The notes under the pieces were generated by a model, which was given only the letters and a program-made list of their open reading frames with translations, was not told the origin of the DNA and made no database searches. Made by a program: the position numbers and the translations under genes. This document shows positions 1 through 12,282 of a stretch of DNA of 20,428 nt, one piece after another. The DNA is from JACRDV01 sp024860865 [NCBI: Methanobacteriota archaeon]. Lineage in GTDB: Archaea; JACRDV01. The stretch covers positions 1-20,428 of the forward strand of contig JACRDV010000071.1 of the NCBI GenBank assembly GCA_024860865.1, written 5' to 3'. Numbering within the stretch: the first letter of the stretch is position 1; each line of letters starts with the position of its first letter.

Positions 1-1345
1 GATAAAGTATTTGAGCAAACATCAAATGTTGCGTGTTTGCCCGGCATTCAAAAGTTTTCTATTGCAATGCCCGATGCCCACTGGGGATTTTGATTAAGTT
101 TCTGCTTAATCGACTCCAAATGGTTTTCCAATAGGCGGCATTGCGGCATTTGACCCAAATGAAAACGGAATTATTAGTGTTGGGGGAGTGGGATTCGACG
201 TAAATTGTGGCGTCAGAGCTCTTAAGACTAATCTCGCATTATCTCAAGTGAGGCCAAAGATAAAAGAACTTGTTGACACTTTGTTTCAAATAGTACCAGC
301 TGGTTTAGGGTCAAGAGGAGAGATAATACTCAAAGGTAATCAGATTAATGATGTCCTCATTGATGGCGCTCAGTGGGCAGTTAAGCAAGGCTATGGTACA
401 GAGGATGATCTCGAACATACAGAGGAAAAAGGGAAAGTTCCAAAAGCTGATCCCGCAAACGTTAGCCAAACCGCAATAAAAAGAGAACAAGGCCAAGTAG
501 GAACATTAGGTTCTGGTAATCATTATTTAGAAATTCAATATGTTGATGAAGTTTATGATGAGGCAATTGCTAAACAATTTGGCTTATCTAAAGACCAAAT
601 TTTAGTTTCAATCCATTGTGGTTCAAGAGCTTTAGGCCATCAAATTGGAACTGATTATTTGAGAATTCTTGCAGATGCCGTGAGAAAATATAACATAAAA
701 ATAAAAGACAGAGAACTAGTTTGCGCGCCATTCAGTTCTGAGGAAGGACAAAGATATTTTTCTGCAACTAACTGCGCAATAAATTATGCATTTGCCAATA
801 GGCAAGTGATTGCGCATCTTGTTAGGAGGGGACTTAGCAAGGTATTTCCAGATGCTGAGGTAAAAACGCTCTATGATGTTGGGCATAATACAGCTAAATT
901 AGAAAAGCACGAGATAGATGGTAAATTAAAAGAAGTTATTGTGCATAGGAAAGGAGCTACTAGAGCGTTTGGTCCCGATAGGGAAGAAGTGCCTAAAGAT
1001 TACAAAAATGCTGGTCAACCAGTGCTCATTGGTGGCTCGATGGGGACGTATTCTTACATTTTAGCAGGAACTGCTGAAGGCGTGAAAAAAGCCTTTGGGA
1101 GCTCGTGCCATGGCGCCGGGCGGACAATGAGCAGAATTGCTGCCAAGAAAAAATATTGGGGAAGCACTTTAGTTAAAGAGTTAGAATCAAAGGGAATTTA
1201 CATAAGAGGCCACTCTATGTCGGGATTGGCTGAAGAAGCTCCAGATGCATATAAAGATGTTTCAGTTGTTGTAGATGCAACTCATGATGCAGGGGTAGCG
1301 AAAAAAGTCGCGCGGCTCAAACCTATGGGAAATGTTAAAGGTTAA
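1..1345 (+). CDS. rtcB: RtcB RNA ligase, 5'-truncated, interrupted by a 31-nt intron-like insertion
   Basis: RtcB joins 2',3'-cyclic-phosphate and 5'-OH RNA ends using GTP and Mn2+; in archaea it ligates tRNA exons after the splicing endonuclease cuts. The gene enters from the left edge in frame 1 (1-88), is interrupted at 89-119, and continues in frame 2 (120-1345). Removing the insertion gives one frame of about 437 residues reading MPDAHWG-Y-GFPIGG across the joint; family members are near 480, so only the N-terminus is missing. Visible signatures are the metal-binding [39 protein letters not shown], and SSCHGAGR with the histidine that is guanylylated in this family. The GTG at 188 is not a real start, because homology continues upstream of it. 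A T-rich tract follows the stop. Identification is near certain; whether the insertion is spliced is inference. Confidence 0.95.
89..119 (+). other. Candidate 31-nt bulge-helix-bulge intron inside rtcB
   Basis: Seen directly: nt 90-98 pair with 105-113 (9 bp, one G-U) around a 6-nt loop. Nt 83-86 (GGGG) pair with 114-117 (CTCC, one G-U). Nt 87-89 (ATT) and 118-120 (AAA) are the two 3-nt bulges on opposite strands. This is the geometry of the archaeal splicing-endonuclease substrate, which is cut after the second nucleotide of each bulge, here after 88 and after 119. That excises 31 nt and joins T88 to A120-T121, making a TAT codon. The unspliced frame meets TGA at 91-93. The outer exonic helix is weak (C81-G122 after a T-T mismatch, or CCA 78-80 with TGG 121-123), so this is a relaxed BHB. 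Splicing itself is not observed. Confidence 0.8.
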
Positions 1346-4238: not shown

Positions 4239-4338
4239 CGCCGGGGTTGGGATTTGAACCCAAGAGTCCCATAAGGGACACGGGATCTCTGTATTCATCA
4301 TGCTCCAATCCCGCGCATTTCCACTCTGCCACCCCGGC
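4239..4338 (-). tRNA. tRNA-Ser(GGA) with a 16-nt intron
   Basis: A complete class II tRNA. The acceptor GCCGGGG pairs with CCCCGGC, followed by discriminator G (serine type); CCA is not encoded. Then come the D arm GCA...TGC, anticodon stem CGGGA/TCCCG, a long variable arm GTCCC-TTAT-GGGAC, and T arm TTGGG-TTCAAAT-CCCAA. The anticodon loop is TT-GGA-G...A with 16 nt inserted at the canonical 37/38 site (4287-4302). Mature length is 84. The intron fits BHB geometry: loop positions 32-34 pair with the intron end (U-G, U-A, G-C), with 3-nt bulges on both sides, though the inner helix is only 2 bp. Any intron placement that leaves a 7-nt loop and starts after two to six more loop bases still gives GGA. 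A TATA-like GATAAAAC lies about 25-30 nt upstream. Confidence 0.93.
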
Positions 4339-4557: not shown

Positions 4558-5553
4558 CTACTTCCCCCACATTCGCGGATAGGTTCCTGGCAACATAATA
4601 ACTCTTTCAGTCCTAATCGCAATCCCTTTATTTAACTCAATAATCTGGTCGGTTGTTAACTCACTTCGACCCAATGATATTAATTCATTCTTTAAGGTGA
4701 ATACGGCAACAAAATCATCTCTTTTTATTCCAGTTTCAGCTTGCAAAATTCCGGGTACTGCTAGATGGGCACCATGGCAAATGGCATCAACAGCTGAGTC
4801 TCTAACTGTGACTCGTGGCAGATGTTGAACAGTTTTTTCAAGCGGCTGAATAATTTTTTTCAAAAATTTTTCTTCGCCATCTTCTTTCCAAAAATGATAC
4901 GAGTCCATTAACTCATGAAGTTTAGTTAAAGTTTCATCCTCTTTAAATGGACCTGTTTGAGTCCTTCTAAGCTCTGCCATATGTGCGCTAACGCCAAGTG
5001 CTTCTCCCACATCATGTGTAAGCTTTCGGAGGTATGTTCCTGCCTCACAGCCAACTCTAAGCAAAACATCTTTTTCAATTATTTCGAGCACATCAATATA
5101 GTATATCTTTCTTGGCCGAATTTGTCTTTTAACAGCAGCTCTGATGGGGGGCTTCTGAAGAATAGTCCCAGTAAATTCTCTGCAAACTTCTTTGATGCTA
5201 GCTTCGCTTGCATGTTCGTGTAAGTGCATTACACAAATGTATTCTTTCCCTGCTGATAACAAAGTTTGAATGACTTTTGTAGCATCCTCAAGGGCAGTCG
5301 GTAGAACTCCGCTAACATTTGGGTCTAAGGTGCCGCCATGGCCCGCTTTCTTTAAGCTTAAAATTCTTTTAACCCAAGCAACTACTTCATGTGAAGTTGG
5401 GCCACGGGGTTTGTCAAGGTTGATAACCCCTTTTTTAATGTGCTCTTCAATTGCTCTATTCTCTGGGGGGCAGCCGTACTTTGGGTCGGTGCTTTCTTCG
5501 GCTTTTATTAGAATTTCTCTTCCTTTCTTTTCAAATGGCAATTGGTTGGTCAT
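4558..5553 (-). CDS. cbf5: H/ACA RNP pseudouridine synthase Cbf5 (dyskerin/TruB family)
   Basis: The catalytic subunit of archaeal H/ACA RNPs, which convert uridine to pseudouridine in rRNA, and in archaea also in tRNA without a guide. GVINLDKPRGPTSHEVVAWV and GHGGTLDPNVSGVLP carry the TruB signature; the Asp of GTLDP (residue 77) is the catalytic aspartate. GCEAGTYLRKLTHDVGEALG is a second conserved core block, and residues from about 250 form a PUA domain. I chose ATG at 5553 over GTG at 5568 because GGAG sits 5 nt before this ATG. That gives 331 residues, normal for archaea. Some crenarchaeal cbf5 genes contain a BHB intron; here the frame is uninterrupted. The usual upstream neighbour eL14 is displaced by a toxin-antitoxin pair. 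Confidence 0.97.
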   Translation of the reverse strand: MTNQLPFEKKGREILIKAEESTDPKYGCPPENRAIEEHIKKGVINLDKPRGPTSHEVVAWVKRILSLKKAGHGGTLDPNVSGVLPTALEDATKVIQTLLSAGKEYICVMHLHEHASEASIKEVCREFTGTILQKPPIRAAVKRQIRPRKIYYIDVLEIIEKDVLLRVGCEAGTYLRKLTHDVGEALGVSAHMAELRRTQTGPFKEDETLTKLHELMDSYHFWKEDGEEKFLKKIIQPLEKTVQHLPRVTVRDSAVDAICHGAHLAVPGILQAETGIKRDDFVAVFTLKNELISLGRSELTTDQIIELNKGIAIRTERVIMLPGTYPRMWGK

Positions 5554-5594
5554 AAAATCTCCGTTCACGTCGAGTTAGCTTTAATGAAAAAACA

Positions 5595-11052: not shown

Positions 11053-11681
11053 CTATTTTTTGAATTTTAAAATTGGAACTCGAGTTAGCCTCAATTTTTG
11101 AAGGGCATTAAAAGTTGCTTTTGCATAGTTTATTCGGGTGCATGTCATCCCCTCAGACTTAGACCAAACGTCTTTAATCCCAGCAAGTTTTAAAACAGAT
11201 TTTCCAGTATCCCCTATAGCAAGTCCTAAACCACGCGGAGCGGGCAAAAGGGTGACTTTTATACTTCCAGCCTTTCCAATTGCTTCTGCAATGATACTGT
11301 GGGATTGACCGCAACCGCATTCCCAAGATCCACAGCCACGTCGAACATCGATTAAATTTAACTTGGCATTTTCAATTGCTTTCGGATAGCGGGTCCAACT
11401 TCTTTTGCTTTACCCTGTCCGAGTCCAATATACCCATCTTCATTGCCAATTACAACAGTCGCTCTAAATTTGCTTCGGCGACCTGAAGCATGCATTTTTT
11501 GAACTAAACCGATATCAATAACTTCTTCTCTCAAATTTGGAACTAATACATCGACAATTTGAGGCTCTAAAATTGGCAAACCTTTGCGCAAAATTTCTTC
11601 TAAGCTAGCAATTTTCCCCTCCTTTACCGTCCTGCCTAATTTTGTTTTTGGTTGCCAAGCTTCTAAATCAACTTCTGGCAA
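11053..11681 (-). CDS. rps5: 30S ribosomal protein uS5, with a one-base frameshift in this sequence
   Basis: A small-subunit protein at the mRNA entry channel. The reading frame is split. 11681 down to about 11380 encodes the N-terminal part ([52 protein letters not shown]). The next frame down to 11053 encodes [30 protein letters not shown] and [17 protein letters not shown]. Adding one A to the AAA at 11380-11382 restores a continuous 209-residue uS5 of normal length. The start is TTG at 11681 with GGAGGT 7 nt upstream; the longer frame from 11729 would run into uL18. The cause may be a sequencing or assembly error, a true deletion, or recoding; the site is not a classical slippery heptamer. 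Confidence 0.93.
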
Positions 11682-11685
11682 ATTA

Positions 11686-12282
11686 TTAACCTCCGATTTT
11701 CTCTGCAATAGCTTGTTTAACCTGTTCAAAATGTTCTGTAAGTTTTTCAGGCATAAGTCCGCTCTTTATATAAACCGAAAAGTGTTTTTCGTATTTTGCA
11801 ACATCTCTTTCTTTCAAAGTTTTTGCATAATTTGCGATATGCTCTCCTTTGATCCGGGAATTATCAGGAAGTATATCCTCACTGCATGGAACACTCATAC
11901 CTGCATCTATGGTGCCTTTAACTGCCGCATATGCGCGAGATCCTTTAACAGAGGATTGAAGTCCAGTGTCGAGAACCCCCTCTTTAATTCCAGCTTTGAT
12001 GGCTTTGATGCCACAGAGATATCCGGTTAAGTATGCTGAGGGAATATTTCCACAGCTGCCTAACCATTTAAAATCGCGTTTAAGTTCATTTGTATGAGCA
12101 GAAATCAAAGTCTCATCGCCTTTTGGTATGGACCTAATAAGCTGAACTATTGTATGATTAAGGGTTTTTCGGATAACTATCCGTGGCTTCCTAGAAAGGA
12201 GTAATTTTAAGCGTTGTCGATAATCAGTTAATCCTTTGCGCTTTCTGCGAAATTGTACACGATATCTCGGACCAATTGCCAT
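11686..12282 (-). CDS. rpl18: 50S ribosomal protein uL18
   Basis: A 5S rRNA-binding protein of the central protuberance. [73 protein letters not shown] and the C-terminal [13 protein letters not shown] are family-typical. I start at ATG 12282 (198 residues), supported by GAGGT upstream and by homology. The open frame runs 38 codons further upstream, but that part is the antisense-phase shadow of eL19. Its final codons contain the Shine-Dalgarno GGAGGT of uS5. Confidence 0.96.

Follow-up and report, generated by a model that had tools for sequence, protein, structure and literature searches.

A probable bulge-helix-bulge pre-mRNA intron in the gene of the RNA ligase RtcB and the recurrence of such short inserts in archaeal rtcB genes

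In the 20,428-nucleotide (nt) stretch of archaeal DNA analyzed here (the window; bases 1–20428 of contig C15, JACRDV010000071.1, of assembly G000), the gene rtcB, encoding the 3'-5' RNA ligase RtcB, is interrupted by 31 nt at positions 89–119. The insert is very probably a bulge-helix-bulge (BHB) intron of the rtcB pre-mRNA, which, judging from the sequence, would be cut by the tRNA-splicing endonuclease EndA and sealed by RtcB, so that RtcB would be needed for the production of its own mRNA. Two results go beyond a preliminary description of this DNA: the insert is recurrent in other archaea, and a second recurrent site lies around Asp95–Cys98 of the RtcB active site. The G000 assembly comprises 1.54 Mb in 160 contigs, is 92% complete, and is the sole member of its phylum among the compared genomes. 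The features of the interrupted gene are listed in Table 1.

Table 1. Coordinates of the interrupted rtcB gene and of the predicted BHB elements in the window
Feature	Position	Strand	Basis
rtcB exon 1, 5' end lost at contig start, last bases CAC TGG GGA T	1..88	+	spliced translation
Putative BHB intron, 31 nt, TTTGATTAAGTTTCTGCTTAATCGACTCCAA	89..119	+	sequence; protein-optimal junction = BHB; covariation in 15 genomes
rtcB exon 2, rest of RtcB to stop codon	120..1345	+	open reading frame 188–1345; Pfam RtcB 1.3e-147
Central helix, 5' half, GGGG, exon, 4 base pairs	83..86	+	sequence and script
Central helix, 3' half, CTCC, intron	114..117	+	sequence and script
5' bulge AT|T, predicted cut after 88	87..89	+	sequence and script
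3' bulge AA|A, predicted cut after 119	118..120	+	sequence and script
Inner hairpin of intron, 90–98 with 105–113, plus U99-G104 wobble	90..113	+	sequence, RNAfold; 10/10 inner pairs

Because rtcB begins at contig base 1, its first codons fall outside the window. When the gene was read without splicing, the frame ran through ...MPDAHWGF to a stop codon, and the remainder, which matched the Pfam RtcB family (Table 1), lay in a different frame that stayed open for 411 codons, up to 1342. Deletion of positions 89–119 produced the junction GGA T|AT GGT (Gly-Tyr-Gly), restored MPDAHWG-Y-GFPIGG, and yielded a single stop-free frame of 437 codons. The preliminary description had claimed that a 31-nt insert splits rtcB, that the frame is regained by its removal, and that the joining creates the Tyr codon of the conserved HWG-Y-GFPIGG motif, and these claims were borne out to the base. 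The junction was the unique best in protein score for a 31-nt deletion (ties 1). All 437 residues of the spliced protein aligned with residues 41–481 of Pyrococcus horikoshii RtcB (PH1602), and by this alignment the split codon corresponds to Tyr70. A second rtcB gene was not found in the 92%-complete assembly.

Around the insert, two 3-nt bulges lie on opposite strands of a 4-base-pair helix, which is the BHB arrangement. The central helix had 4/4 pairs, one of them G-U, and the 90–98/105–113 helix had nine pairs, also with one G-U, and the canonical cuts of this structure coincided exactly with the ends of the insert. RNAfold returned the same helices with an energy of −18.1 kcal/mol (z −1.87), and 6 of 200 shuffled sequences were equally or more stable; fold energy is by itself weak evidence, and the agreement with the protein carries the weight. 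When the insert was subjected to mononucleotide shuffling with the exons fixed, pairing of 4/4 central and 9/9 inner positions was obtained in 9 of 400,000 shuffles. The helices, bulges, and cuts given in the preliminary description were thus recovered from the sequence and by RNAfold, and its statement that structure and reading frame agree to the base held, the BHB lying at the unique protein optimum.

Other rtcB genes were then compared. In a first set of 111 rtcB loci, the alignment spanned the site in 105, of which 103 were uninterrupted and two (L022 and L051) were misaligned at the site, both having long inserts further on. The six non-spanning loci were the window gene, two loci with long inserts, two starting after the site, and L134 of genome G059, whose alignment started at the same residue as that of the window gene. 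In L134, an insert of 32 nt split the equivalent codon exactly where the window gene is split (GGC T|..|AC GGA), with AAGG/CCTT as its central helix versus GGGG/CTCC in the window. A domain-wide search covered 345 genomes, 330 of them with rtcB, and inserts were found in at least six (G000, G059, G154, G194, G202, and G292), with two inserts in the rtcB of G202. The figure of 6/330 is a lower bound, as the 59 genomes re-searched were chosen, among the matches listed, for split, weak, or stop-containing matches, and split matches belonging to families f6 and f42, together with a few whose frames had the size of inteins, were omitted. The searches were extended to the orders of G202, G059, G292, and G194, in which rtcB matches were found in 34/36, 74/79, 35/41, and 76/80 genomes and insert carriers after inspection numbered 6, 6, 6, and 18, respectively; the order of G154 was left out. 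In total, 557 different genomes were searched, 525 had an rtcB match, and at least 38 carried inserts (44 inserts seen). Comparison of related rtcB genes around HWGYGFP, proposed in the preliminary description as a check, accordingly yielded inserts with covarying BHB pairs.

For systematic detection, a caller script located each site by matching the rtcB sequence on its two flanks to a position-specific matrix built from 88 uninterrupted proteins. It reported 40 inserts of 16–33 nt in 35 archaeal genomes, 31 at site 1 (HxGYGFPIGG) and nine at site 2, five genomes having inserts at both sites. By the PH1602 alignment, site 2 falls in codons 94–97, which include or adjoin the codons of Asp95 and Cys98, residues that coordinate the two Mn ions of RtcB (PMC10630183; this and the other cited papers are drawn on in excerpt). 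The protein fixed the insert length and, for 26 inserts, left no choice of junction; in 24 of these 26 the BHB was located exactly at that junction. In 11 of the 14 inserts with tied junctions it was located at one of the ties, and in L162 and L177 it was within 2 bits of the protein optimum. Overall, the BHB was at or within 2 bits of the protein optimum in 37/40 inserts, versus 0–4/40 at each of 40 shifted positions, a control to be read together with the 24/26 figure because the chosen junction could prefer a BHB within 6 bits. The BHB geometry test was passed by 37/40 inserts, 25 with 4/4 and 12 with 3/4 central pairs. Four further inserts were recognized outside the caller by inspection: those of G399 at site 1 and G444 at site 2 passed the geometry, and those of G469 and G505 at site 1 restored the motif with helices that were mismatched as judged by eye. 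The shortest insert (16 nt) was that of L148 (G365:C80), which had a second frame break near site 2; the G365 assembly also contained a divergent insert-free rtcB (L161). A clear BHB was not seen at the breaks of L138 and L182 or at this second break of L148. Runs of N were present in L158 and L180, and L139, L142, and L145 begin at contig ends.

Covariation was analyzed in the 15 genomes that share the cut offset of the window (GGN T|), which were aligned to a model, R1, built from G000 and G194. In this group, 94.7% of cells were paired versus 65.7% after shuffling and 34–52% with slid partners, and changes on both sides occurred in 12/14 pairs; none of 500 shuffles was as high on any of five measures, although the alignment was fitted to the structure, so that the count leans towards pairing. 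These compensatory changes are those expected of a BHB intron. In a model-free comparison, in which the 3' halves were re-dealt among all 40 inserts, the paired fraction was 0.925 versus 0.471 for the central helix and 0.896 versus 0.455 for the inner helix. Within the window-offset group (n = 15), the central helix gave 0.967 versus 0.833 re-dealt (maximum 0.933), the contrast within single-offset groups being smaller because the exon codons are conserved. The inner helix exceeded the best re-deal both in this group (0.922 versus a maximum of 0.689) and in the group cut after the His codon (0.924 versus 0.894; n = 11). A MAFFT alignment of the mixed introns misplaced gaps and was not used for the model.

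Fifty rtcB loci sorted as bacterial by record titles served as controls; to our knowledge, bacteria lack BHB splicing. Forty-nine could be placed at site 1 and all were uninterrupted, with no short site-1 insert in any of them; at site 2, 46 were uninterrupted, three had long inserts, and one was not placeable. Model R1 scored 38.4–66.6 bits for thirteen offset-10 introns outside the model, including that of G059 (59.9), versus 24.5–36 bits for the six uninterrupted rtcB genes given to it. Introns with other offsets (L140, L137, and L136) scored 20–28.6 bits, similar to uninterrupted genes, and R1 was therefore not employed for detection.

What the sequences show directly is the insert with its frame and BHB geometry, the covariation, and the recurrence in archaeal rtcB; from established enzymology we infer cleavage by EndA and ligation by RtcB, and any regulatory use of the resulting loop would be hypothetical. 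In the rtcB transcript, the intron and flanking exon bases would fold into the BHB, EndA would cleave each 3-nt bulge between its second and third bases, and RtcB would seal the two exons, one ending in a 3' phosphate or cyclic phosphate and the other starting with a 5' OH. The joined exons would be the only reading frame encoding full RtcB, which would probably be needed for its own mRNA in a self-dependent loop: if cleavage is by EndA and ligation by RtcB, the ligase matures the message that encodes it. The preliminary description had read the motif as an intron recognized by the archaeal tRNA-splicing endonuclease, and this interpretation of the splicing is supported by the agreement of frame and structure, the recurrence, and the covariation. 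As a more tentative proposal, it is possible that this circuit couples the RtcB level, the competing tRNA-splicing load, and rtcB mRNA maturation, and that introns have repeatedly arisen or persisted at conserved codons of the active site because nothing but precise removal would be tolerated there.

Alternatively, EndA might cut the BHB as a switch, with the cut mRNA mostly degraded and RtcB output lowered. EndA cleavage at BHB sites in 5' untranslated regions has been reported in Haloferax (PMC7714728), and negative regulation was proposed for the cbf5 intron by Yokobori et al. (2009; PMC2738675). However, the 37 spliced peptides given by the caller were all stop-free across the junction, and since RtcB is encoded only by the joined exons and G000 yielded no other rtcB, some ligation would be needed if RtcB is made at all; we give a pure switch only a slight chance of being correct. 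That the gene is inactive, or that the insert is an assembly or sequencing artefact, is a still slighter possibility. It is favored by a likely 1-nt frameshift in the uS5 gene of the same assembly (approximately 11380) and by the position of rtcB at a contig start, but 437 conserved codons are open after splicing, and the recurrence of same-type inserts at the same motif with covarying helices and compensatory changes is not what an artefact or a decaying copy would produce. Ribosomes that bypass or read through the insert in unspliced RNA would accord with the 12/40 inserts whose lengths are multiples of three, and phages offer known cases of bypassing over short hairpins. The other 28/40 inserts break the frame, bypassing is not known to involve a BHB whose cuts coincide with the protein junction, and the four site-1 offsets described below also speak against this explanation, which is hardly credible.

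Several observations weigh against the intron reading. The outer exonic helix of the window is weak (1/5 pairs), as the preliminary description had already remarked; the element thus has the weak-outer-helix form and lacks the stable exon-side outer helix of the full BHB class (hBHBh'). Three of the 40 inserts (L166, L171, and L184) failed the inner-helix test despite 4/4 central pairs. In 9/11 genomes whose cut follows the His codon (e.g., L136, L146, and L154), the outermost central pair was G-A, and the central helix of this group gave 0.773 versus 0.722 re-dealt (maximum 0.773), which equals the best re-deal; the conserved G-A departure may reflect a 3-base-pair central form. In addition, the 185-amino-acid EndA frame of G000 has the size of the homotetrameric enzymes, and homotetrameric EndA has a narrow substrate range. 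A limited substrate range is also described for the alpha'2 type of EndA (PMC12397907).

The distribution of rtcB introns is clearly patchy (repeated gain, loss, or transfer). Site-1 cuts were found at offsets of 3, 5, 10, and 12 nt from the start of the His codon, which argues against a single ancestral intron for all. On a quick RtcB tree of 143 rows, the site-1 states required 26 changes, and well-supported branches forced at least 20 for presence or absence. Presence was not clustered in this sample (26 changes versus a shuffled mean of 26.8; 194/500 shuffles as low), and only the offset-3 class was (8 changes versus 9.8; 6/500 shuffles); these numbers are rough, as the intron-less rows were hand-chosen and G399, G469, and G505 were coded as lacking inserts despite having them. 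G154 and L088, the latter titled Hadesarchaea, were placed together in a clade of five rows with a support of 100. The intron-bearing assemblies were 0.4–1.9 Mb in size.

G000 encodes the endonuclease, with one PF01974 match (107 bits) in the 185-amino-acid frame. An EndA match was present in 36/38 intron-bearing genomes and 31/34 others, and the two intron-bearing genomes without one were 73% and 77% complete. The type of EndA was considered as a cause of intron presence and rejected: frames of 393–409 amino acids, called epsilon2-like by size only, were present in 7/38 intron-bearing genomes and 3/34 others, so that size does not separate the groups. A frame of about 400 amino acids was absent in 29/36 intron-bearing genomes with an EndA match; G023, which has no intron, had a 379-amino-acid EndA frame, and the remaining genomes had shorter frames or no match. 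Introns were found in 15/20 distinct tRNA genes of G000 by ARAGORN, with approximate positions. The tRNA-Ser(GGA) gene at 4239–4338 (− strand) of the window, with an intron of approximately 16 nt, was matched by Rfam and missed by the tRNA tool.

A BHB pre-mRNA intron of crenarchaeal cbf5 was reportedly described by Watanabe in 2002. The rtcB introns resemble it in being short (16–33 nt versus 16–44 base pairs in cbf5; PMC2738675), in cuts after the second bulge base, in their position at a conserved place of an RNA-processing enzyme, and in their patchy occurrence among relatives. The BHB of most cbf5 introns is unconventional, and the cbf5 introns are tied to the heterotetrameric crenarchaeal EndA and split the codon of the catalytic Asp (PMC2738675). 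Unlike them, the rtcB introns interrupt the gene for the ligase that acts in splicing itself, at two recurrent sites with several cut offsets and sometimes two per gene. The cbf5 gene of the window (4558–5568) is a single open frame, and the host gene here is rtcB. Archaeal tRNA introns share the BHB motif and the presumed enzymes EndA and RtcB, but they are supported by the tRNA fold, whereas the exon half in rtcB is coding sequence under codon constraint. Metazoan XBP1 mRNA, processed by IRE1 and RtcB, is likewise a protein-coding message cleaved by an endonuclease outside the spliceosome; RtcB rejoins it, and removal of its 26-nt intron changes the frame (PMC10630183). It differs in the endonuclease and the RNA signal, in being stress-regulated, and in that the target is not rtcB.

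Long inserts of 396–1530 nt, taken as inteins, occupy the same stretches of rtcB, at site 2 in 15 loci (e.g., L010, L011, L021, and L137) and at site 1 in two. Inteins are protein-level elements for which a BHB is not needed. L152 (G440, 1491 nt) and L185 (G491, 1470 nt) have such inserts in or beside HxGYGFPIGG, and in the RtcB tree G440 is placed close to G000. The rtcB introns, the presumed inteins, and the cbf5 intron have in common a position at which an imprecise loss would ruin the enzyme.

Among the matches listed in the open full-text literature, to which preprints and most subscription papers do not belong, we found no report of rtcB introns and no confirmed spliced archaeal protein-coding gene other than cbf5. 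The excerpted text of PMC7714728 gives cbf5 as the only additional BHB intron reported as of 2020, and that of PMC2738675 mentions unconfirmed intron predictions in other genes. If a recurrent set of introns occupies the very gene that encodes the splicing ligase, mRNA splicing in archaea would have a wider scope than has been assumed, numerous genomes may have an rtcB annotated as disrupted or absent, and the ligase may be subject to feedback from splicing. The set would provide dozens of natural substrates with covarying helices for studies of EndA specificity and of the gain and loss of very small introns. Its distinctive features are a host gene that would make the intron dependent on its own product and the repeated use of two sites.

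Further split genes were sought by tblastn of 400 kb of the 829-kb single contig of G509, 400 kb of G479, and the window against each other, with 191 queries above 60 bits against G509, 214 against G479, and 48 against the window. Of the split rows, one belonged to rtcB (G509 site 2) and two to a reverse-transcriptase gene; eight further rows with a stop beside an alignment gap were taken as sequence outside genes. The scan flagged one of three known rtcB introns (G509 sites 1 and 2 and G479 site 1), and owing to this low sensitivity the uniqueness of rtcB as a split gene is not demonstrated. In L244 (G509:C1:324642-325696), a relative of a reverse transcriptase (RVT_1) of G479, two frame breaks and a nine-G run were present and no convincing BHB was seen. 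The uS5 gene of the window (11053–11729, − strand) was considered as a second intron-split gene and rejected, as it has no insert; its division into two open reading frames reflects an apparent 1-nt deletion near 11380 (CCGAAAGCAATTG), which is likely a sequencing or assembly error.
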